Made by a program: the position numbers and the translations under genes. From a virus, in IMG/VR virus record IMGVR_UViG_3300031758_000339, positions 1 to 31,791 of that record: a stretch of DNA of 31,791 nt. One strand, written 5' to 3'. The notes beneath the pieces were generated by a model, which searched no databases, had not been told where the DNA came from, and saw nothing but the letters and a program-made list of their open reading frames with translations. Positions 7,278 through 29,583 of the stretch are shown here, piece by piece (position 1 is the stretch's first letter; the number at the start of each line of letters is the position of its first letter).

Positions 7278-8114
7278 TCAGTCAATCGAAACGAGCACGG
7301 GTGTTTGGGGCGCGTGCTGCCGCACCTGGCCCCAGTCGATGTAGGCCTGGGCGGCGAGCGACGCCGTCCGGTGGCCCAGGTGGATAGTCGCCTTGCCGGG
7401 CGAGGAGATCTCGATGTGAGTCGCCCCGCTCCTGCGCAGGAACTTGGAAGTCCCAGGTAGGCCGCATGCGTCCAGGTGGAGCCGCATCAGCCGCATCGCC
7501 TGGCGAGGCTTGCAGGCCCAGCCCAGGATCCGCCCGTCGGGCGAGTCTTTGAGCATCGCGCGGCACGCGGCCACGCAGGCCGGCGAGAGCACCTTGACGA
7601 TGCCGTCGCCGGTCTTCGACTGCGTCCACCGGAGAACGTCGCCGTCGAGGTTGTCGCCGGCGAGCCTCCAGAGGTCGCCGTGACGGCTCCCGCACTCGTA
7701 GCCCAGGAGCATCCACGTTCGCAGCAAAAGCCCCTTGTCGGCCCCGCTGCGAAGCCTGCGGCCGTCGTGGGCGTGGGTCTGCTCGATCCCGTGCCGGAGT
7801 TGCTCCACGGTCCAGGCCCGCGTGGGCGGCTTGCGGGCCTTGATCCGCATCACGCCGCGCGGCAGCTCGTCCACGAGCCCCTGCTCGTAGGCGTCACGCC
7901 AGAGCGACATCAGGATCGTCCGCTCGCTGCGGACCGTGACCGCCGACACCTGTTCCAGGCGGCTGCGGAGGTACGCGTTGATCCGCTCGGCCGAGATGGT
8001 CGAGACCCGGCCCGCGATCCGCTTCACGTTGCCCTGGTGGGCAGCGCTGACGGACCGCTGGGAGAGGTACTTCTTCGCCACGACCGAGAACGTGAGGATT
8101 TCAGGTCGTGGCAT
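7278..8114 (-). CDS. second tyrosine recombinase, HxxR histidine replaced
   Basis: 278 residues, ATG 8114 with AAGGAGG upstream, overlapping the ATPase gene by 14 bp. An N-terminal SAM-like core-binding domain (about 1-95) precedes a catalytic domain. R144 (CGSRHGDLWRL), K167 (TQSKTGD), R227 (KFLRRSGAT), H248 (HLGHRTAS) and Y258 (AQAYIDWG) are in place. The first position of HxxR is Lys224 rather than His. Tyrosine recombinases cut and rejoin DNA through the Tyr. It sits in the replication operon, not beside the att region, and is separate from the plus-strand integrase. It may resolve multimers, act on another site, or be a domesticated DNA-binding relative. Some active family members tolerate changes at this His. 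Confidence 0.85.
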   Translation of the reverse strand: MPRPEILTFSVVAKKYLSQRSVSAAHQGNVKRIAGRVSTISAERINAYLRSRLEQVSAVTVRSERTILMSLWRDAYEQGLVDELPRGVMRIKARKPPTRAWTVEQLRHGIEQTHAHDGRRLRSGADKGLLLRTWMLLGYECGSRHGDLWRLAGDNLDGDVLRWTQSKTGDGIVKVLSPACVAACRAMLKDSPDGRILGWACKPRQAMRLMRLHLDACGLPGTSKFLRRSGATHIEISSPGKATIHLGHRTASLAAQAYIDWGQVRQHAPQTPVLVSID

Positions 8115-10900: not shown

Positions 10901-11800
10901 ATGACACTCAGCGCGTTCCTCGAAACCGTATACGTTCCCCTGCGTCTCCGCGGCCGCTCCCAGGAAAGTGTCCGGCTCCTGAAGCATGCCGTCACCCAGT
11001 TCAGCCGGTGGCTCGGCCGGCCGGCTCTGCTCGAGGACCTCGACGACCTGGTCGTCTCGCAGTGGCTCACGGCCCGGGGACAGAAGCTGTCCCCCAACTC
11101 CGTCGCCCGCGAGCGGAGCGGGATTCTCGCCCTCTGGAACTTCGCCCAGGCCCGCGGGCTCGTCCGCCTCCGGCCGGCCGTCGCGCCGGAGTTGATCCCG
11201 GAGCGGGTGCCGCGGGCGTTCACGACCGACGAGCTGGCGCGGCTCGCCGCCTCGGCCCGGCAGGCGAGCGGCTGGGTAGGGCCTGTGCCGGCGAGCGTGT
11301 TCTTCCCGGCCCTCGTCGCCGTCGGCCTAGAGACCGGCGAGCGGATCAACGCGATCCTCTCGACGCCGCGGCATTGTTGGAACCGGCCCACGCTGACGGT
11401 CCCCGCGGGCGTCAGGAAGGGCCGCAGGCAGGAGCGGGTGTACGAGCTGTCGCCGGAGGCCTCGGACCTGGTGGACCGCGTCACGGCCCACACGGGGCCG
11501 ACGGTCTTCTGGTGGATGGCCTCTGGCACCGCGTTGCGGAAGCGATGGAAGACGATCACCAAGCGGGCCGGCCTCGGTGAGGGCCGCGAGGTCCAGTTCC
11601 ACGCGTTGCGGCGGTCGACCGCGTCGCACCTGGCGGCGGCCGGCCTAGACGCGACTGCCTTCCTCGGCCACTCGTCCGACCGGATCACTCGCCGGAGCTA
11701 CCTCGACCCTCGCGTCGTCGACGCCCGCCGGCCGAAGGCCTGGCAGGCGATGCCGCGGATATTCAAGCCAGACGAGGATCCACCGGCGAAGACGGCGTAG
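10901..11800 (+). CDS. int: tyrosine recombinase (phage integrase)
   Basis: 299 residues. ATG 10901 has GGAGG eight bases upstream; an earlier ATG at 10886 lies before that site. An N-terminal core-binding domain (about 1-95) precedes a catalytic domain with all six positions present: R148 (TGERINAIL), K173 (VRKGRRQ), H234 and R237 (FHALRRST), H257 (LGHSSDR) and Y267 (RSYLDPR). It would recombine attP with a host attB to integrate the element. It is the only convincing plus-strand gene, divergent from the excisionase candidate and convergent with the gene ending at 11882. A 6-bp inverted repeat (10868-10873 and 10894-10899) overlaps its ribosome site and might hinder translation. Confidence 0.92.
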   Translation: MTLSAFLETVYVPLRLRGRSQESVRLLKHAVTQFSRWLGRPALLEDLDDLVVSQWLTARGQKLSPNSVARERSGILALWNFAQARGLVRLRPAVAPELIPERVPRAFTTDELARLAASARQASGWVGPVPASVFFPALVAVGLETGERINAILSTPRHCWNRPTLTVPAGVRKGRRQERVYELSPEASDLVDRVTAHTGPTVFWWMASGTALRKRWKTITKRAGLGEGREVQFHALRRSTASHLAAAGLDATAFLGHSSDRITRRSYLDPRVVDARRPKAWQAMPRIFKPDEDPPAKTA

Positions 11801-11881: not shown

Positions 11882-12337
11882 CTAGCCCTCGCACTCCGCC
11901 CAGCACGCGGCATACCCTGCGGTGTCGACGAGGTTGTCGTGATGGGGTCGTTCCTGATGGCGGGCGAGCTTGTCGAGGATCATGATCTGTGCCCAGTCGG
12001 CCACGGTCAGCGGCTCGCGGAGCTTGTGGCCCATGATCGCGTTGATCGCTCCGACAGTTCTCGCGAAATGCTCGGCCGCGGGGCCGTAGGTTTGCCGCCG
12101 CTGGCGGATCGTCCGGGCCGTCTCGTCGAGGAGTCGCTCGCCGGCGTTCGCGTTGTCGACCGCGTGCTCCGTTTCGTCCTGCTCGCTCACTTCGTCTGCC
12201 TCCTGGTAGTGTCGAATCATGTGGATGGCCTGAATGAGAAGCCCGGCCAACGCGCCCGACGTGCCGGTATAAGCGCCGGAGAATTGCCGCGCCCGCTGCT
12301 CCGCGTCCCGCAGCTCGTCCTCGGTGAGCCAGTACAT
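11882..12337 (-). CDS. DUF6378-like protein
   Basis: 151 residues, ATG 12337 overlapping the TGA of the phosphoesterase gene (ATGA). The C-terminal half matches the pattern I know from the phage DUF6378 family: RRQTYGPAAEHFARTVGAI, then MGHKLREPLTVADWAQIMIL, DKLARHQERPHHDNLVDTAG and YAACWAE. The family is all-helical and of unproven function; related helical domains hydrolyse nucleotides (MazG-like), which suggests nucleotide-pool handling. The N-terminal 75 residues (TEDELRDAEQRARQFSG, acidic linker) are not recognised. It is paired with a metallophosphoesterase, so the two may act together. Confidence 0.7.
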   Translation of the reverse strand: MYWLTEDELRDAEQRARQFSGAYTGTSGALAGLLIQAIHMIRHYQEADEVSEQDETEHAVDNANAGERLLDETARTIRQRRQTYGPAAEHFARTVGAINAIMGHKLREPLTVADWAQIMILDKLARHQERPHHDNLVDTAGYAACWAECEG

Positions 12338-13338
12338 CAGGACGCCCTCACCTTGCCGTTGGCGATCCGCATGTTCTGAACGTCGAACTCTCCGCCCTCG
12401 TGAACGGTCACGACCGCGAACCCGTGGTTCCACGAGTTGATGCGGGCATATGCCGGCGTGAGATCGCACAGGCAACCCGTCGACCAGGTCGTCGTCTCCG
12501 CGTGCCACATGTCGCTCTCGGCATGCGTGCTCGAGCGATGCGAGTGGCCGACGAGCGTGGTGTGATGGGTCCGCATGAACGCCCCTCGCGCCGGGTTGAC
12601 GGGCGCGGCGACCCCCTTCTGTAGCTCGTGCCCGTGGAGGACCGGGAGCTGGCCCAGCATCACCGGCCGGCCCTCCTCGACGAGCGTGATGTCGTGCCTG
12701 TCCAGGTACAGCCAGGCCTGGAGGCTGCTCAGTTTGTCCTTCGACAGCTCCGGCGCATGTTGCCAGATGTAGTGTTGCCACCGCTCCTCGTGGTTGCCCG
12801 CCTTGTACACGATCGGAATGTCGGGGAACGTCTCGCGGATCCAGCCGACGAATTGCCGCTGGGCTTCCAGCTCGCCGGAGAAGTCGCGTTGCCGCGGGTC
12901 TTTCATCCACCGCGAGAGGGCGTAGAAGTCGCCGATGTCGCCGTTCAGGAGAAGAGCGTCGAGGCCCAGCTCGGCCAGGTGGCCGACCGCCGCCAGGACC
13001 GCGACCTCGTCGTGGTAGGGAACGTGAACGTCCGAGAGGATGCCGACCCGGCCGACGACCTCGAGGACTTGCGGCCGCCAGGGCTCCGCGTTGGTTGGCA
13101 TTAGGCGATACTCGACGCCGGCCATGCGGGGCGGGCGGCCGATGTTCTTCACGGTCTTGCGGTTCTTTTCGCCGTTCGTGCCGAGCTGGCGTTGGATCCG
13201 CTTCCTCGCCTGGTCGATCGTGAGCGCGCCGCGAGACTCCTGGACAAGCATCCGGGCGAGGCCGCGGGCCGGGTGGTCCGGGTTCTCGCGGACGATCCGC
13301 CGGGCTGCGGCGGTGAGGGGATCTCCTCCGGTTGGCAT
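12337..13338 (-). CDS. calcineurin-like metallophosphoesterase
   Basis: 333 residues. ATG 13338 follows AGGAGG at ideal spacing. The metal-binding blocks are in order: D103-x-H105 (ILSDVHVPYHD), G133-D134 (NGDIGDF), GNHEE 181-185, H235-G-H237, and GHSH 264-267, so a two-metal catalytic site is complete. The first 60 residues form an extra basic helical domain (TAAARRIVRENPDHPARG; QARKRIQRQLG) that could bind DNA. Phage enzymes of this type can be nucleases or cyclic-nucleotide/phosphate hydrolases; the substrate cannot be read from sequence. It stands between the tail genes and the int region with the DUF6378-like gene. Confidence 0.85.
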   Translation of the reverse strand: MPTGGDPLTAAARRIVRENPDHPARGLARMLVQESRGALTIDQARKRIQRQLGTNGEKNRKTVKNIGRPPRMAGVEYRLMPTNAEPWRPQVLEVVGRVGILSDVHVPYHDEVAVLAAVGHLAELGLDALLLNGDIGDFYALSRWMKDPRQRDFSGELEAQRQFVGWIRETFPDIPIVYKAGNHEERWQHYIWQHAPELSKDKLSSLQAWLYLDRHDITLVEEGRPVMLGQLPVLHGHELQKGVAAPVNPARGAFMRTHHTTLVGHSHRSSTHAESDMWHAETTTWSTGCLCDLTPAYARINSWNHGFAVVTVHEGGEFDVQNMRIANGKVRAS

Positions 13339-22877: not shown

Positions 22878-22903
22878 GGGCCGCCTCAGTCCAGATATGG
22901 GGC

Positions 22904-22937
22904 GGCCGGGGGGCTGCATCCTTGCGGCCCCCCGGCC
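22904..22937 (-). terminator. 11-bp hairpin just after the capsid gene
   Basis: GGCCGGGGGGC (22904-22914) and GCCCCCCGGCC (22927-22937) are perfectly complementary, with a 12-nt loop. The hairpin begins 27 bases past the capsid stop and ends before the next gene (22877). It is extremely stable but lacks a U run on the minus strand. It could cut transcription partly or protect the abundant capsid message from 3' decay. Confidence 0.5.
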
Positions 22938-22963
22938 TCAACATCAGCGTGAAGGTTCAGTCG

Positions 22964-24166
22964 TCAGCCGGCGGCCTCGACGAGCTTCGCGACGAAGCTG
23001 GCGTCGTGGTTCGCGATGCCGACCCGTTGCGTGCCGCGGTAGACCACCTGGTCGTTCGCGAAGCCCGCGTCGGTCGACGCCGCGATCTGGAGGCCGTTGG
23101 CCTTGTAGGCCACCGCGGTCGCCATCGAGAAGTCGCCGTACAGGGCCAAGGTGCCCGCAGGCAGACCCAGGCAGCGGAAGACCGGGGCACCCATCACGAC
23201 AGGGAGGACGCGGTCGCCGATCGTCGTCGACTGCGTGACCACCGAGGCCTTCATGATGTGAGCCCAGCCGGCCGAGCTGACCACCCAGGCCGTGTTCGTC
23301 GCGCGGCTGTCGATCTTGCCGACCAGCTCCGCGAGGTCCACGCCGTCGTTGTCGGCACCGGCTTCCAGCGTGTTCGCTTCGCTGATCTCACCGACGAGGC
23401 CGTCGATGCTCTTGGCGACCGAACCCTGGAGCCACACCTCGTCGATCTTCTTGCCGATCGCCATGGCGAGCCGGTTGGCGACCGTCTGGGCGAGGGCCAC
23501 GCCGGCGGCCACGTCCTCGACCAGCTCGTTCGACACCTTGATCAGGCGGCCGAGCTTGTGGAGAGCGATCTCCACGTCGTCGGTCGGAGCGTCGGCGTCG
23601 GTGATCGCCTGGTTCTCGTTGAAGAAGTCAGCCGTCACCTCGCCGATCTTCGGCACGGTGATGCTGTTCGACGAGGTCGGATAGAGGCTGGCGAGCTGCA
23701 CGCCCACCGAGCTGTAGCCGAGAACGTCGATAAAGCCGTTGAACAGCTCGGGGATCACCAGCTCGCCGCCGGTGCTGTCCGTGCTGCCCGACATGGCCCG
23801 CAGCTCGCGAACGTCCCGACGGGCCAGAGCCCGCAGGGCGCGACCGGCGACCTCCATGTCGGCGTGCCGCTTGTCGGCACGGCCCGGCATCACATGCACG
23901 GCCGGGGCCTTGCGGGCCTCGACGGTCGCGATCGTGTCGGAGTCGCTGGTCCGGACGCTGCGGAGCGAAGCCAGGCGAGCGTCCAGCTCGTGCTCCTTCG
24001 CGGCGAGCTTCGCCACCTCGTCGGCGCGGGCGGACCGCTCGGCGAGCCGCTCCTCGATTTGCGCCTTCTCGGCGTCGTCCTTCGGCTCGATGGCGCGGAG
24101 ATCGACGATCTCCTTCTCGATGGTGACCGATTCGTCCTGGAGCTGGGCGAGCTTGGCGCTGGGCAT
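22964..24166 (-). CDS. major capsid protein, HK97 fold with N-terminal delta domain
   Basis: 400 residues from ATG 24166 (AAGGA eight bases upstream; upstream ATGs at 24175 and 24211 lack a usable site). Residues 1-70 form a charged coiled coil (QDESVTIEKEIVDLRAIE; LAERSARADEVAKLAAKEHE), the built-in scaffold that the prohead protease removes. The mature part starts near 124-137 (AMSGSTDSTGGELVIPELFN) and shows the HK97 pattern: a spine helix, VPKIGEVTADFFNENQAITD (E-loop/P-domain), and LIKVSNELVEDVAAGVA. An 82-bp gap upstream (24167-24248) may hold control signals; I saw only repeated CGTAGGACG. Confidence 0.92.
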   Translation of the reverse strand: MPSAKLAQLQDESVTIEKEIVDLRAIEPKDDAEKAQIEERLAERSARADEVAKLAAKEHELDARLASLRSVRTSDSDTIATVEARKAPAVHVMPGRADKRHADMEVAGRALRALARRDVRELRAMSGSTDSTGGELVIPELFNGFIDVLGYSSVGVQLASLYPTSSNSITVPKIGEVTADFFNENQAITDADAPTDDVEIALHKLGRLIKVSNELVEDVAAGVALAQTVANRLAMAIGKKIDEVWLQGSVAKSIDGLVGEISEANTLEAGADNDGVDLAELVGKIDSRATNTAWVVSSAGWAHIMKASVVTQSTTIGDRVLPVVMGAPVFRCLGLPAGTLALYGDFSMATAVAYKANGLQIAASTDAGFANDQVVYRGTQRVGIANHDASFVAKLVEAAG

Positions 24167-24248
24167 GGTTCGCATCCTTGCGTGTGTGCGGGGTTCCGAA
24201 ACTGCCCACACCGTAGGACGCGCCGACCAGCGCTTGAATCGTTTTGTC

Positions 24249-24563
24249 CTAGCGTAGGACGGTCGGACACTTGCCGTCGGGGCAGGGCGGGGCGGCCTTC
24301 GACCGCTCGGCCACGCATCGCTTGCACTGGCAGCGGCACGTCTGCGAGACGCGGCCGTCGGGCTTCCACACGCCGCGGACGCACGTCTGGCCGCAGTCGC
24401 ATGCCACCGGGGCCGGGCCGGGGCCGGGGGCCGGGGCCTCGGGGAGCATCGACGCCCGTGCGGCCGCCACGGCGGCGAAGGCCCGCGGCTGCTCGAGGTC
24501 GATCACGGCCGGGTCGGCCGAGAGCCAGACGAGGAACGAGATGATCCACTGCCAGAGCGACAT
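24249..24563 (-). CDS. Cys-rich protein with N-terminal membrane segment
   Basis: 104 residues, ATG 24563. A hydrophobic N-terminus (SLWQWIISFLVWLSADP) is followed by an Ala/Pro linker and a C-terminal half with ten Cys in a tight pattern: CDCGQTC, CRCQCKRC, CPDGKC. This could be a zinc-binding or disulfide-linked domain; with an N-terminal signal/anchor the domain would face the periplasm, favouring disulfides. The block resembles no family I can name. Position is the last gene before the capsid. Confidence 0.65.
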   Translation of the reverse strand: MSLWQWIISFLVWLSADPAVIDLEQPRAFAAVAAARASMLPEAPAPGPGPAPVACDCGQTCVRGVWKPDGRVSQTCRCQCKRCVAERSKAAPPCPDGKCPTVLR

Positions 24564-24565
24564 GA

Positions 24566-24829
24566 TCAGAGCCCTCGTGCGTGGTCGATCACCGGAAACC
24601 CGTCGTCGCCGATGGTCGGGGCCTGGACGAGCCGCGCGTCCTGGCGAGCTGCCGCCGGCGGCGGGTCAGCGAACGCGGCGATCCAGAGGAGGTTCTTCGC
24701 GGCCCTGGCGAGCCACGTCAGGACCGGCCGGTCGGGTGGGCCGGGGCGGGGCGATCGGTCGCCCGCGAGCCAGTAGCCGAACGCCGCCGCGGCGACGAGA
24801 ACGAGGAGAGTGTTCCTGTCGAGCTTCAT
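24566..24829 (-). CDS. small membrane protein
   Basis: 87 residues; ATG 24829 overlaps the stop of the papain-like gene. A TM segment (about 7-22, TLLVLVAAAAFGYWLAG) follows a short basic N-terminus, then a Pro-rich linker and a weaker hydrophobic stretch (about 46-55, LLWIAAFADP). The rest is polar. In phages, such small membrane proteins next to a hydrolase are often spanin- or pinholin-like; nothing here proves this. Confidence 0.6.
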   Translation of the reverse strand: MKLDRNTLLVLVAAAAFGYWLAGDRSPRPGPPDRPVLTWLARAAKNLLWIAAFADPPPAAARQDARLVQAPTIGDDGFPVIDHARGL

Positions 24830-25935
24830 CGAATCACCTCAGTCGGAGCCGGCGTCAGAAACGCGCCGTTGTCGAGATCACGCCAACCGAAACCGGAAAC
24901 GCCGCCGATGGCCCACGTGTCCTCGCGGATCATTCGCTCGACGACGCTGCGACGTGCCAGGAACGCGCCGTCCGGTAGGTCGGCTGGGAACTTGCCGCCC
25001 TCGTACCGCAGCCATCGCGGACCCCAGCTATTCAGCACGACCGCCAGATCGTCGGGCGCTCCGTTCTTTTTGTGGAGAATCCCACAGATCATCATCTGGT
25101 GGTGCCACGTCCCGCTGGCTTCCGCGATGCCGCGATTCGCGACAGACGAAAAGCCTTGGGAGCTGGCGACCGTGCACGGATAGCCCGACTCCAGGGCCGC
25201 GGCCAGCTCGTCCCAGGTCTCGACTTTGACGACGTGCCGGCATGGGTGTTTCTTCGCCAGGCGGTCGAGCTTGTAGTCGTCGCCCTGGCCTCCGGCCCCA
25301 TACGCTCCTTCGTGCTTCTCGCGGGTGGCGTTGTAGGTCGTGTAGTCAAACACGCCAGGGTATGGCTTGCGGTACACGACGCCCCAGTCTCGGAGCCAGC
25401 GAGCGGCGGCGGCACCGAACGAGCCGTCCGACCACCCGCCGACAGGCTGCGACCCGTCGTAGCCTTCGGGGTTGCTTCGACGCGCTTCGACCCTGGACCC
25501 GCCGTACAGTGGCTCGGTCGCCGGCATCAGCGGAGGCTCGGCCAGCTCGCCGACTTCCCACGACACTGCCTCGGCACAATACACGGCGTGCATGGCACCC
25601 CACGCGACGCAGCTTCCGTTCATCTGCCGGCCGACAACGAAGTCCGTGCCGTACCTCGCGCGGTGTGCCTTGAACATCGCGCGATAGAGAAGCGTGTCCG
25701 TCCCCTTCGCCTTCTCCATGCACTCGGCACCGGCTTGCCTGAACAGCGGCTGCGGCAGCTCTGCCAGAAACTTCCGGACGCCTTCCGGGTTTGGCGTGTA
25801 CCCGTAGTTGTCCTGCCAGTCGCCAATCCAGCCGACGGGCCGGGGGCCGGCGACAAACTCGCCGACGATCACCGCGAACGCGATCCCTAGGAAGCCCGCG
25901 AGGGCCAGCCAGCGGTAGGTGTTGCGGCGGCTCAT
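24826..25935 (-). CDS. membrane-anchored papain-like (C1) cysteine protease
   Basis: 369 residues, ATG 25935 overlapping the stop of the gene before. A basic N-terminus and one TM segment (about 8-30) give a signal anchor. Q104 and C109 (VGRQMNGSCVAWGAMHAV), H279 (GTWHHQMMICGI) and N302 with W304 (VLNSWGPRW) occupy the papain catalytic order Cys, His, Asn, with the expected spacing, so an active enzyme is likely. The mature domain would be outside the inner membrane. Phage papain-like enzymes are rare and may process virion proteins, degrade host surface proteins or help lysis. It is flanked by membrane proteins and sits between protease and capsid. Confidence 0.85.
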   Translation of the reverse strand: MSRRNTYRWLALAGFLGIAFAVIVGEFVAGPRPVGWIGDWQDNYGYTPNPEGVRKFLAELPQPLFRQAGAECMEKAKGTDTLLYRAMFKAHRARYGTDFVVGRQMNGSCVAWGAMHAVYCAEAVSWEVGELAEPPLMPATEPLYGGSRVEARRSNPEGYDGSQPVGGWSDGSFGAAAARWLRDWGVVYRKPYPGVFDYTTYNATREKHEGAYGAGGQGDDYKLDRLAKKHPCRHVVKVETWDELAAALESGYPCTVASSQGFSSVANRGIAEASGTWHHQMMICGILHKKNGAPDDLAVVLNSWGPRWLRYEGGKFPADLPDGAFLARRSVVERMIREDTWAIGGVSGFGWRDLDNGAFLTPAPTEVIR

Positions 25936-26498
25936 TTCGCGGCGGCCTCCGCGGCGGCGGCGACCTCGCGATAGGCCGCGATCCAGGTGGCCCGCTGCTC
26001 CGGCGTCAGCGGCTTCCCGCTCGTCCCGGCGACGCGGTCGAGGTAGTCCTTCACGGCGGCCCGGACCCGCGGGTGGCGGTCGCCGATCGAGTCACCGCGG
26101 AGCCGGAGGTCGAAGGCCCGGACCCGCAGATCGTCGAACGCGACGCCGGTCGTGATGATCGGCGTCGACTGCATAGCGTCCCATTCCACCTCGCCGGCCA
26201 GCTCGCCGAACAGGGCCGCGAGCTTCGCCGCGTCGGAGGCGGCCTCGGGGTGGGCGTTGAACAGCCCGCGAAGGACGAGCGGGGCGTCGGGGGCCGGCGG
26301 GGCCGGCGTCGGCTCGGTGCGGTTTCTGCCCGACCAGACGAGGGCGAGGGCGGCGAGCAGGCCGGCCCCGACGACGTGCCGCAGTTCGACGGCCGGCAGC
26401 TTCGCGTGGGCGATCGCGACGAGCTGCTCGAGGCGGTCGCGGCCCAGGAACGCGTAGGCCGCCCCGGCGGCCAGGGCAACCAGGAGGAGCGTGTCCAT
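25932..26498 (-). CDS. two-TM membrane protein
   Basis: 188 residues, ATG 26498. Hydrophobic segments at about 3-18 (TLLLVALAAGAAYAFLG) and 41-56 (HVVGAGLLAALALVWSG) are followed by a soluble C-terminal domain of about 115 residues (LVLRGLFNAHPEAASDAAKL, AAYREVAAAAEAAAK). It is translationally coupled to the papain-like gene. No family is recognised. A lysis-type pore or an anchor for the protease are both possible. Confidence 0.65.
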   Translation of the reverse strand: MDTLLLVALAAGAAYAFLGRDRLEQLVAIAHAKLPAVELRHVVGAGLLAALALVWSGRNRTEPTPAPPAPDAPLVLRGLFNAHPEAASDAAKLAALFGELAGEVEWDAMQSTPIITTGVAFDDLRVRAFDLRLRGDSIGDRHPRVRAAVKDYLDRVAGTSGKPLTPEQRATWIAAYREVAAAAEAAAK

Positions 26499-26501
26499 GC
26501 G

Positions 26502-26873
26502 TCAGACCCTCACGAGTGGCAGCAGTTGCTCGATGGCACCGGCGGCGATCGCGATCACGAGCGACCGCACCGGCGAGCGGACGAGAATCCAGAGCGGGTA
26601 CACGGCGAGCGGGACCGCCTTGTCGGCGACCGCGTCGAACAGGCTCGCCACGGCCTCCAGGGCGAGGGCCTTCTTCTGGGCCCCGGTCATCGTTGAGACC
26701 GTGTCGAGAGCGGTCACGACGAGCCGCAGCAGGGCGAGCATCAGCTCGCCGAACTCCGCCCAGGTGATGCCGTCGGCGGCGGCGGACCTCGAGGTCGCGA
26801 TGAACGCGGCGATCTTCGCGAGCAGGCCGTCCTCCAGGTTGGAGGCGGCGGCGACCGGGGCGGCGGCGATCAT
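26502..26873 (-). CDS. hydrophobic helical protein, holin-like candidate
   Basis: 123 residues, ATG 26873 overlapping the TGA of the zinc ribbon gene, with GGAGGAG upstream. Helical segments at about 44-60 (ELMLALLRLVVTALDTV), 88-98 (PLAVYPLWILV) and 102-120 (VRSLVIAIAAGAIEQLLPLV) are amphipathic or hydrophobic. The conserved-looking TGAQKKALALEAVASLFDAV segment reminds me of a phage family of unknown function. Holin-like by size and topology only. Confidence 0.55.
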   Translation of the reverse strand: MIAAAPVAAASNLEDGLLAKIAAFIATSRSAAADGITWAEFGELMLALLRLVVTALDTVSTMTGAQKKALALEAVASLFDAVADKAVPLAVYPLWILVRSPVRSLVIAIAAGAIEQLLPLVRV

Positions 26874-27025
26874 CGGCTTCTCCTCCAGACGGCATCGGCC
26901 GGGACCACCTGGCGGCGGCGCTCGCGGCACTGTTGGCACTCCACGTAGCGGACCTGGCGGTCGCCCGCCCGCTTGCTCGACTCGACGCGGAGGCGGCCCC
27001 CGCACTTCGGGCAACTAGCCGGCAT
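26870..27025 (-). CDS. 51-residue zinc-ribbon protein
   Basis: ATG 27025, overlapping the protease gene by 11 bp. CPKCGG near the N-terminus and CQQC 25 residues later form a classic four-Cys zinc ribbon (PASCPKCGGRLRVESS; YVECQQCRERRR). Mu Com-like and Rpb9-type ribbons look like this; Com binds mRNA. The rest is basic. It probably binds nucleic acid or another protein. Confidence 0.7.
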   Translation of the reverse strand: MPASCPKCGGRLRVESSKRAGDRQVRYVECQQCRERRRQVVPADAVWRRSR

Positions 27026-27995
27026 GGGCTCGCATCCTCGCGACTGCGGCCGCGGCTGCGGCCCGGGCACCGGCGAGCGACGAGGTCTTCACGGCCGGGG
27101 CGACCTCGGGGGCCGGGATCTTCTCCGGCGAGTCGTCGATCCACACGTCGATCGAGATGCCGGCGTCCTGGGCGGCCGACCGCTTTTGCTTGTCAGCTCC
27201 GCACAGCAGGACGCCGGCTAGCTCGGCATACAGGTCGCCGAACGCGAGCCGCAGCTCGTGGCGGTTCTGCTCGGTGTCCTCGCGGCGCGTGATGCAATAG
27301 ACGCGCGAGCCGCGGCCGGTGGCGTCGGCCACGAACGACCGCCACAGGCCGGGGGCGGCCGTGAACGTCTGGTCGAAGTCGAGCGAGATCGTGAGCGACC
27401 GCTCGGCCTGGCCGTGCTGGACCATGCCGCGGGCGGCCCGCCAGGCGTCGAGGGATCGCGGGGCGATCGAGCTGGACGGGTAGGCCGGGCTTGTCACTGC
27501 GGAAATGTCGTAGAGGCCGGAGGCCTGATGCACGAGGCGGGTGATGCCGCCCCGCTCGTCCTCGGTCCAGGTCTCGCCGCCGTCGGCGACGGTGAACGCG
27601 AACGACGAGCCGGTGATCGTCCGGTCCTCGACCATCATCACGAGATCGCGGCCGTCGCTCGTCAGGAGCGGCGTGTGGCGGAAGGCCAGCCCGCGGGCCT
27701 CCTTCCGCAGCTCCAGGCGGCCGTTCGACGTGCGGCCGGTGATCCGGCTCGGGTCGTGATTGAAAAGGAATGGAACGTCGATCTTGCCGCGCGGGTCGGT
27801 CGGCTTGCGGTCGACCAGCCCGTCGAAGGCGGTCGGGCTGAACTTCTCGCGGAAGCCTCCGAGATCGACGGAGAGCGAATCCCACGGCGGCGAGATGCCT
27901 ACGAGGGCGGCCGGCTCGCCGTCCCGCTTCTCGACGCCGATCGCGTCGGGCGTGTCGGTCGTCAGGAGATAGCGGCGTTCAATTTGATGCGACAT
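27015..27995 (-). CDS. prohead protease fused to a HAD-like domain
   Basis: 326 residues from ATG 27995 (AGGAGGAAG upstream). Residues about 1-195 are an HK97 (U35/S78) prohead protease: PFLFNHDPSRITGRTSNG contains N79-H80 and TITGSSFAFTV contains S130-S131, the catalytic His and Ser region. Residues about 200-292 match a HAD-type fold: motif I LDFDQTFT (D206, D208), a Lys region near 269-271, and motif IV WIDDSPEKI (D287, D288). A short Ala-rich tail ends the protein. There is no stop or frame change between the domains. The protease cuts capsid delta domains; the HAD part could be removed, or act on nucleotides or sugars. The fusion is uncommon. Confidence 0.85.
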   Translation of the reverse strand: MSHQIERRYLLTTDTPDAIGVEKRDGEPAALVGISPPWDSLSVDLGGFREKFSPTAFDGLVDRKPTDPRGKIDVPFLFNHDPSRITGRTSNGRLELRKEARGLAFRHTPLLTSDGRDLVMMVEDRTITGSSFAFTVADGGETWTEDERGGITRLVHQASGLYDISAVTSPAYPSSSIAPRSLDAWRAARGMVQHGQAERSLTISLDFDQTFTAAPGLWRSFVADATGRGSRVYCITRREDTEQNRHELRLAFGDLYAELAGVLLCGADKQKRSAAQDAGISIDVWIDDSPEKIPAPEVAPAVKTSSLAGARAAAAAAVARMRAHAG

Positions 27996-29583
27996 CGTCT
28001 TCCTCCTGGCCGATCGGCTCGGCCGACAGCTCCGACACACGCTTGCCGACCGTGAACTCCGTCGGCTCGCCGTCCTCGTAGACGCGCAGGCTGGCGGCCG
28101 GCTCGTCCTCGGTTGCGACGATCGAGAACGGCGACCCATCGACACCCAGGACGCCGTCGATCATCAGATGCTCGATCGTGCCCTCGCCCCCGGCCCAGTA
28201 GACGTACTGGCCTTCGCGGAAGCCGCCGGCCTCCGGAACGCCGGCCCCGGGTGCCCGCGCGGGCTCATCGGCCGGAGCGTCCTCCGGCGCAGGCTCGGCC
28301 GGCGTGGCTGGCGGCTCCCCTGCGGCCGGAGCGGCCGGGTCAGCCTGGGCGGCGGCCGCGGCCAGTGTCGAGAACCCTAGCTGCATGTAGGTCTCGTCGG
28401 CGGCCGGATCCTCCAGGAGGTCGAAGTCCTCGAGGTCTCGCAGCTCATTCGGGGCCAGCGCCCCCATGTTGAACATCGACTGGTAGAGCTGGACGCGGCT
28501 GGCCGTGTCGCCGCGCAGTAGCCCGCGGTTGTCAAACTTCACGTACACGTCGTCGCCGTAGACCGGCTGGAGGGCCATGTCGAGCGGCCCCTCCATGCGA
28601 CGCATCCACGGGAGCAAACACCACACCTGGGCCGACAGGTGTTCCTGTTCGACGTTCGACCACCGGGCCATGCGGGCGTCGCCGAGAAGCGTCGAGGGCA
28701 CGCCCCAGCAGCGGCACACGTCGGGGAGGATCGCGTCCCGCAGCTCCTGGAACTGCGACTGCTCCATCGTGTTCGATTCAATGGGCTTCAGTCGCGTTTT
28801 CTTCGGGAGGACGGCGGTCTTCCCGCGGTTGCCCGCGCCGCCGTAGACCTGGTGGAGGGCGGCTCGCAGGGCGTCGACCGCCTCGTCTGGAATCTTCTCG
28901 TCCGTCTCGAGGACCATGTCGGGCCGGGCCGAGTTGTCCCAGAAGGACGTGGCCGCGGCGTCGAGCTTGCGGGCCAGGGCGATCGAGGTCGAGCACAGCT
29001 CAGGCGGGGCCATCCCCACGAGGCCGTTGTCCGACAGCCAGCGCCAGTGGAGGACTTCCTGCTGCCGCAGCGGAACCCAGCGGTGGTTCTCGTCGAGAAA
29101 CTCGTAGCTCACCGAGTAGTCGGCGTTCCGGTGGATCTTGACCCGCGTCGGGTGCATCGGCCGCAGCTCGGAACACCAGCCGCGATCGCCGGGCAGGATG
29201 CGGGCGAACGCGTTCCCGTGGAGGGCAGTCCAGTAGGCGATGAGCTGATAGAAGTCATAGGCCGACTGCCATGCGTTGGGCCGCTTCCGCATAGTGTAAG
29301 AGCATGGGAGCGTGGTGGCTTCGCGCCGGCCGGTGGGCAGGCTCCGCATCGTGTGGACCGGCATGACGGCCACGGCCTGGGCGATCCAGCGGACGACGCC
29401 CAGGATCGAGGTAACGCGGATCGCGGTCTCGGGGCCGATCGTGGCGGACCACGACGAGCCCCACGCTCCTGGATCGGAGAGGCTCCCGCGGAGAGAGATC
29501 ACATGCGAGACCGGCACGGCCCGCCTGGTCGGCGTGCGGCGGGTGGACGTTCGTCTGGGCTTCGCGGCCTTGGCTCGTGGCAT
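27979..29583 (-). CDS. HK97-family portal protein with a C-terminal extension
   Basis: 534 residues, ATG 29583, longer than the usual 400-460. The core is typical: a start like ATIGPETAIRVTSILGVVRW (48-67), MPVHTMRSLP, the wing region, PDVCRCWGVPSTLLGD and a clip/crown part LQPVYGDDVYVKFDNRGLLR. After about 410, a Pro/Ala-rich linker leads to about 85 residues of strand-like sequence (EGQYVYWAGGEGTIEHLMID, FSIVATEDEPAASLRVYEDG), which resembles a small SH3/tudor-like barrel seen on some phage head proteins. The portal forms the DNA entry ring. It overlaps the protease gene by 17 bp. Confidence 0.9.
   Translation of the reverse strand: MPRAKAAKPRRTSTRRTPTRRAVPVSHVISLRGSLSDPGAWGSSWSATIGPETAIRVTSILGVVRWIAQAVAVMPVHTMRSLPTGRREATTLPCSYTMRKRPNAWQSAYDFYQLIAYWTALHGNAFARILPGDRGWCSELRPMHPTRVKIHRNADYSVSYEFLDENHRWVPLRQQEVLHWRWLSDNGLVGMAPPELCSTSIALARKLDAAATSFWDNSARPDMVLETDEKIPDEAVDALRAALHQVYGGAGNRGKTAVLPKKTRLKPIESNTMEQSQFQELRDAILPDVCRCWGVPSTLLGDARMARWSNVEQEHLSAQVWCLLPWMRRMEGPLDMALQPVYGDDVYVKFDNRGLLRGDTASRVQLYQSMFNMGALAPNELRDLEDFDLLEDPAADETYMQLGFSTLAAAAAQADPAAPAAGEPPATPAEPAPEDAPADEPARAPGAGVPEAGGFREGQYVYWAGGEGTIEHLMIDGVLGVDGSPFSIVATEDEPAASLRVYEDGEPTEFTVGKRVSELSAEPIGQEEDDVASN

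Follow-up and report, generated by a model that had tools for sequence, protein, structure and literature searches.

Five contiguous genes in a temperate phage record form one transferable unit around a predicted papain/cathepsin-like protease, and the best reading of this unit is that it works like a phage lysis cassette. The window, by which we mean the whole stretch of DNA analysed, is an IMG/VR record, linear and 31,791 bases long, from a temperate siphovirus-type phage, and the cassette (gA, gB, PROT, gD and gE) occupies positions 24249-26873 on its minus strand, between the prohead protease and capsid genes. We consider the chances about even that the cassette is a transferable late envelope-disruption (lysis/egress) device of Planctomycetia phages, proteolytic in action and perhaps assisted by thiol chemistry.

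The minus strand of the window carries the terS, terL, portal, S78 prohead protease, HK97 capsid, head-tail and tail genes, with an integrase on the plus strand. The upstream flank of the cassette is the prohead protease gene (27015..27995, minus strand; Pfam S78, 4.9e-27) and the downstream flank a gene for an HK97-type major capsid protein (22964..24166, minus strand; 1.1e-24). Fused to the prohead protease is an extra C-terminal domain (approximately residues 246-349 of the long ORF) which matches PHROGs 4919 and 4256 and has a DFDQT motif that looks HAD-phosphatase-like. A Zn-ribbon ORF of 66 aa (26870..27070, minus strand) is coupled directly upstream of gA; it goes with the window lineage and is absent from the mobile unit. 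Two tyrosine-integrase-like genes (both PHROG 1) are present at 10901-11800 and 7278-8114, one on the plus strand at the end of the late operon and the other in the replication region. At 11882-13338 a calcineurin-like metallophosphoesterase gene is followed by one for a DUF6378-type protein, and in most related planctomycete phages this pair stands directly before the cassette or the integrase.

The first gene of the unit, gA (26502..26873, minus strand), encodes a hydrophobic/amphipathic helical protein of 123 aa and is a holin candidate; its start is the ATG at 26873, the TTG at 27014 given in the ORF list being too far upstream. It is followed on the same strand by gB (25932..26498; 188 aa), with N-terminal hydrophobic segments, a Pro-rich linker and a soluble domain of ~110 aa, by PROT (24826..25935; 369 aa), by gD (24566..24829; 87 aa), with two hydrophobic segments and a conserved C-terminal GDDGF..DHARG, and by gE (24249..24563; 104 aa), which has an N-terminal hydrophobic anchor or signal, a Cys-rich domain and a C-terminal CxDGxC tail (24267..24284, minus strand). 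Overlaps of 4 bases join gB to PROT and PROT to gD, 2-3 bases separate gA from gB and gD from gE, and all five ORFs, described in the initial annotation as adjacent and coupled, are present and show coding-type GC at codon positions. The individual gene descriptions in that annotation hold overall, with two corrections: the hydrophobic segments of gB number one or two, varying by phage, rather than a fixed two, and gA has several weak ones with no clear single transmembrane segment. Pfam and PHROGs gave no family match for any of the five window genes (E 0.1), though gA alone matched >550 viral stretches; gA and gB showed no relation to solved proteins, nor to each other in a profile comparison. 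Both gA and gD are hydrophobic, and a PHROG 'holin' match of gA is weak (E 0.11, one orthologue only). A consensus scan of 22900-28200, confined to sigma-70 promoters and terminators, found neither on the minus strand, so that late co-expression of the cassette with the head genes is likely.

The N-terminus of PROT is Arg-rich and followed by one hydrophobic helix, which suggests that the enzyme domain is periplasmic. An AlphaFold2 model (pLDDT 87, pTM 0.82) consists of an N-terminal helix (residues 3-28, a predicted transmembrane helix), a low-confidence linker and then the enzyme domain, which matches xylellain (3ois) at Z 22.5 over 239 residues, cathepsin B at Z ~19 and many cathepsins at Z 17-19. 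Residues Q104, C109, H279 and N302 are invariant in 49 diverse relatives, and the minus-strand codons of the predicted catalytic residues lie at 25609..25611 (Cys109), 25099..25101 (His279) and 25030..25032 (Asn302, in an NSW motif). By its modelled fold PROT is a papain/cathepsin-like (C1A-like) protease with its predicted catalytic set intact, and the predicted helix, the model and the invariant residues all agree with the membrane-anchored papain-like protease recognised in the initial annotation. It shares with xylellain and cathepsin B the fold over residues 36-347, the Gln/Cys/His/Asn set and the NSW motif, but differs from them in having an N-terminal membrane anchor, in being part of a phage cassette and in placing the Gln five, not six, residues before the Cys. 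Sequence searches of Pfam and PDB gave no match to PROT, even with several members or a profile. Nine PROT members gave no match at E up to 10 to the Pfam families for Peptidase_C1 (PF00112) or C71 pseudomurein endoisopeptidases, and we therefore describe PROT as C1A-like instead of filing it as a PF00112 member. In the same between-phage comparisons, dN was ~0.15-0.18 at dS ~0.7-1.7 for PROT and mostly 0.3-0.6 at similar dS for its cassette neighbours, indicating that purifying selection on the enzyme is strong and its constraint much above that of the rest of the cassette.

An IMG/VR scan identified close orthologues of the cassette, in the same order, in 27 viral contigs, and a profile found PROT relatives in at least 116 IMG/VR contigs, and relatives occur in Planctomycetia genomes as well; the block is therefore far beyond chance, and the search for the same gene set in other phages proposed in the initial annotation was successful. 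Across 78 loci, in differing phage surroundings, the order gA-(c12)-gB-PROT-gD-gE is nearly always the same, and most of these loci are without homologues of the window's terL, portal and capsid; the five genes are one transferable unit. Three settings were observed. In the window lineage the order is prohead protease, cassette, capsid, and each of the 15 informative loci brought up by the capsid on its own keeps the block, whose absence from close relatives the initial annotation had named as evidence against its proposal. In most phages the unit lies at the end of the late operon (metallophosphoesterase-DUF6378-c7-c0-cassette-c6-integrase); at this second site the window lineage has metallophosphoesterase-DUF6378-integrase only, indicating that the unit occupies one site or the other. 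The third setting, RusA-cassette-HNH-terS-terL, occurs in a Pirellulales MAG contig (L100; RusA, terS and terL checked, HNH assigned by eye) and is an arrangement which we take to be the lambdoid lysis slot; in L133-L135, too, the cassette directly precedes terL. The late-operon end and the site upstream of the terminase are ordinary positions for lysis genes in temperate phages. PROT is present in exactly one copy in the window and in each of the other viral contigs checked (22/22).

Behind gA, and at the same two sites, one of two gene sets is found, type 1 (the PROT set; 103 distinct cases) or type 2 (24 cases), with both in 0 and neither in 0; 5 further gA loci cut by a contig end were left out of these counts, and the two totals are biased by the PROT and gA queries from which the loci came, the exclusivity being clean. 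Type 1 modules contain gB (103/103), gD (96/103) and gE (94/103). Type 2 comprises seven small genes including d16 (290 aa) and d18, for example at L209 3993-7145, L206 6375-9592 and ~22 other loci. The d18 product is a secreted trypsin-like protease (Trypsin_2, 1.4e-19) with a Cys-rich N-terminus and a CxDGxC tail, and d16, which is without a family match, has an invariant Cys and His (Cys82/His234). This pair is suggestive, and d16 may be a second papain, but its AlphaFold2 model has a pLDDT of 33 and a profile comparison with PROT gave nothing. Profile comparisons of c12 with d14, trx with d1b and gE with d18 gave no significant alignment, a short tail motif being all they have in common. 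It looks as if one required task has been solved in two ways, each of them involving a protease. In isolated phages and plasmids PROT, gA and d16 had no match, except that a divergent PROT gave one partial match (28% identity) to a marine single-cell virus.

Standard lysis genes were sought by Pfam in ~106 non-structural protein clusters of ~10 cassette phages, and lysozyme, amidase, transglycosylase, NlpC, CHAP, M15 and M23 were all absent among the matches listed; this search used a home-made gene caller, so that very divergent or missed enzymes are possible. PHROGs likewise found no peptidoglycan hydrolase in the window and recognised no standard endolysin, holin or spanin elsewhere in it, as the initial annotation had noted, nor the endolysin/holin pair which it had regarded as contrary evidence. 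Two features of a lysis cassette, a late-operon location and a conserved cluster of small genes, are present here, and a third, a peptidoglycan-degrading endolysin, was found neither in the window nor, among the matches listed, in the ~106 clusters. Because no peptidoglycan-hydrolase family was found, we describe the cassette as working like a lysis cassette and not as a holin/endolysin cassette. Its presence in the usual lysis positions, together with the lack of a recognised cell-wall-sugar-cutting enzyme in the same phages, suggests that it may act on a protein wall, which it would cut to open the host.

Thiol-related proteins recur around the protease. Thioredoxin is the commonest recognisable family near distant PROTs (7/100 neighbour proteins, 28 planctomycete chromosomal loci), and some phages have c30, a gene for a secreted thioredoxin-like protein, ahead of the cassette. 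In each of L136 and L137 one neighbour has a Cys-rich segment like that of gE together with a thioredoxin-like segment containing CGPC, and ends in a CxxGxC tail. This tail, which gE has in common with the type 2 trypsin-like protein and with thioredoxin proteins neighbouring distant PROTs, ends 29/38 gE and 16/16 d18 proteins and 0/1,946 other phage proteins, counts that are not independent since sequences within families are related. It also occurs in 4/500 proteins around chromosomal PROTs, each being PROT itself or close beside it, and is apparently specific to these modules; metal binding, disulfide anchoring and redox activity are possible roles. The tail-bearing proteins at or beside the distant chromosomal protease are at L136 8622-9323, L137 8692-9528, L243 7069-7806 and L239 5884-6942.

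PROT relatives were found in 11/392 sampled Planctomycetota and 91/388 sampled Planctomycetia. Published work describes YTV wall proteins rich in Cys and reports that most Planctomycetales are without peptidoglycan genes (PMC8567305), and peptidoglycan genes are dispensable in Planctopirus limnophila (PMC10632474), although lysozyme-sensitive peptidoglycan sacculi have been reported from planctomycetes (PMC4432640). Most sampled PROT-positive genomes lack mraY (68/80, with 12/80 over the cut-off), as do all nine with the closest PROTs (mraY 0/9), and planctomycetes outside Planctomycetia have it in 14/14 cases; within Planctomycetia, however, the comparison with PROT-negative genomes (mraY in 16/66) was not significant (Fisher p 0.21), and a link between PROT and mraY loss is not supported at that level. 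Similarly, at the phylum level all PROT-positive genomes are YTV-positive (11/11, against 40/392 YTV-positive overall), an overlap which arises because both are confined to one class; within the class 4/8 YTV-negative genomes carry PROT, and a YTV-specific target is not supported. Distant PROT relatives occur also in chromosomes without obvious phage genes nearby, several per genome. Three such chromosomal loci (L240, L242 and L246; 5-8 kb) have a secreted-looking protein of 216-228 aa upstream of the PROT relative and a small protein, possibly of thioredoxin type, downstream, and may be host envelope-remodelling loci.

As a lysis device the cassette would operate as follows. After late expression gA, with gD/gB, would permeabilise or organise the inner membrane, and PROT, tethered through its N-terminal helix so that the enzyme domain faces the periplasm, would cleave envelope proteins. 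Thiol/disulfide chemistry would be provided by gE, or in relatives by a thioredoxin-fold protein, either keeping the protease active or opening disulfide-linked wall proteins. The target would be a peptidoglycan-poor, Cys-rich wall, and the cassette would replace the holin/endolysin/spanin set in hosts with little reliance on peptidoglycan. We put forward more tentatively, as a possibility on the less probable side, that PROT and d18 are interchangeable wall-protein proteases which, helped by thioredoxin-fold/Cys-rich CxxGxC partners, open a disulfide-linked protein wall. The protease-based lysis or envelope attack proposed in the initial annotation is partly supported, gaining from the usual lysis positions, the lack of a hydrolase among the matches listed and the mostly mraY-less hosts; the gene set, order, coupling, mobility, single copy, fold, predicted catalytic set and anchor come from computation, and lysis, the holin role of gA, the thiol role and the substrate are inferred. 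Several observations count against lysis. Lysis enzymes are usually less conserved than PROT is, gA has no firm holin match, the unit of the window lineage lies among the head genes, where lysis genes would not be expected, and PROT shows no significant within-class association with mraY loss, is carried by some YTV-negative genomes and has distant relatives in chromosomes that lack obvious phage genes close by. Given the lysozyme-sensitive sacculi (PMC4432640), a protease alone might also not suffice in every host.

Part of this evidence would fit a moron, the alternative offered in the initial annotation: the anchored protease would trim or remodel proteins of the host envelope, serving to exclude superinfecting phages or to benefit the lysogen, and would not cause lysis. 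Morons, too, typically lie next to the integrase, strong conservation of PROT suggests a fixed host target, and related proteases stand in host chromosomes without clear phage context. This alternative is weakened, and we think it unlikely, since the consensus scan saw no promoter or terminator of its own, start/stop overlaps tie the cassette to the late genes, PROT is single-copy in all phages checked, the PROT set or the alternative set always follows gA, and no standard lysis genes were seen elsewhere among the matches listed. Less probable again is that the papain fold of PROT serves to hydrolyse peptidoglycan or isopeptide bonds, which would make it an unusual classical endolysin with its own anchor: NlpC/P60, CHAP and the C71 pseudomurein endoisopeptidases do have papain-like folds (PMC10318531), among the viral Foldseek matches of PROT are papain-like domains of phage proteins that bear the names N-acetylmuramidase, peptidoglycan binding-like and Lysin A, and peptidoglycan is present in some planctomycetes (PMC4432640), but the closest folds are C1A proteases with an NSW motif, most PROT-positive genomes are without mraY and the alternative module has a trypsin-like protease. 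The position between prohead protease and capsid in the window, and the frequent neighbour c0, by eye a beta-rich putative virion protein, would agree with a role in head assembly or with packaging for digestion of the envelope on entry. That role appears improbable with a prohead protease already there, the unit at the late-operon end or before the terminase in other phages, and membrane segments in most cassette proteins. A last alternative is non-lytic (chronic) release or membrane remodelling, with particles leaving living cells. Release without lysis has been reported for one planctomycete phage (PMC10945688), and a cassette rich in membrane proteins would suit this alternative; we regard it as very improbable here, as no budding machinery was recognised and the phages are tailed types with integrases.

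The preferred reading, a proteolytic lysis device, has partial parallels among known systems. The surface protease Cwp84 of Clostridioides difficile, which acts on a surface protein layer (S-layer), shares the C1A fold with the PROT model (Z 17.4) but is cellular and biosynthetic in role, with no phage cassette. PeiW and PeiP of Methanothermobacter are also cysteine peptidases used by phages on an unusual wall (PMC10318531), but they belong to another papain-like subfamily (C71), to which PROT has no Pfam match, and act as a single enzyme without this gene set. Holin/endolysin/spanin cassettes resemble the present one in that they are placed late, group small membrane proteins around a single enzyme directed at the envelope, have compact and coupled genes and are transferred as a unit; here, in contrast, the enzyme has a protein-protease fold, and no recognised peptidoglycan hydrolase and no holin or spanin family was identified. 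A literature search found no paper on the lysis genes that planctomycete phages carry. If the module is indeed aimed at a wall of protein and not at peptidoglycan, it would to our knowledge be the first such lysis module in a bacterial phage, and such a mechanism would be a larger step than the reading that the cassette works like a lysis cassette. The Planctomycetia envelope itself is disputed, early work having described a protein wall and later work peptidoglycan, with many genomes lacking the genes for its synthesis. Exit requires a phage to breach the layer that bears the load, so that its lysis enzyme points to this layer, and if PROT lyses cells its substrate would show what holds these cells together. 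If true, this would fill a gap for a phylum with almost undescribed phages and add proteases and their thiol partners to the lysis enzymes.
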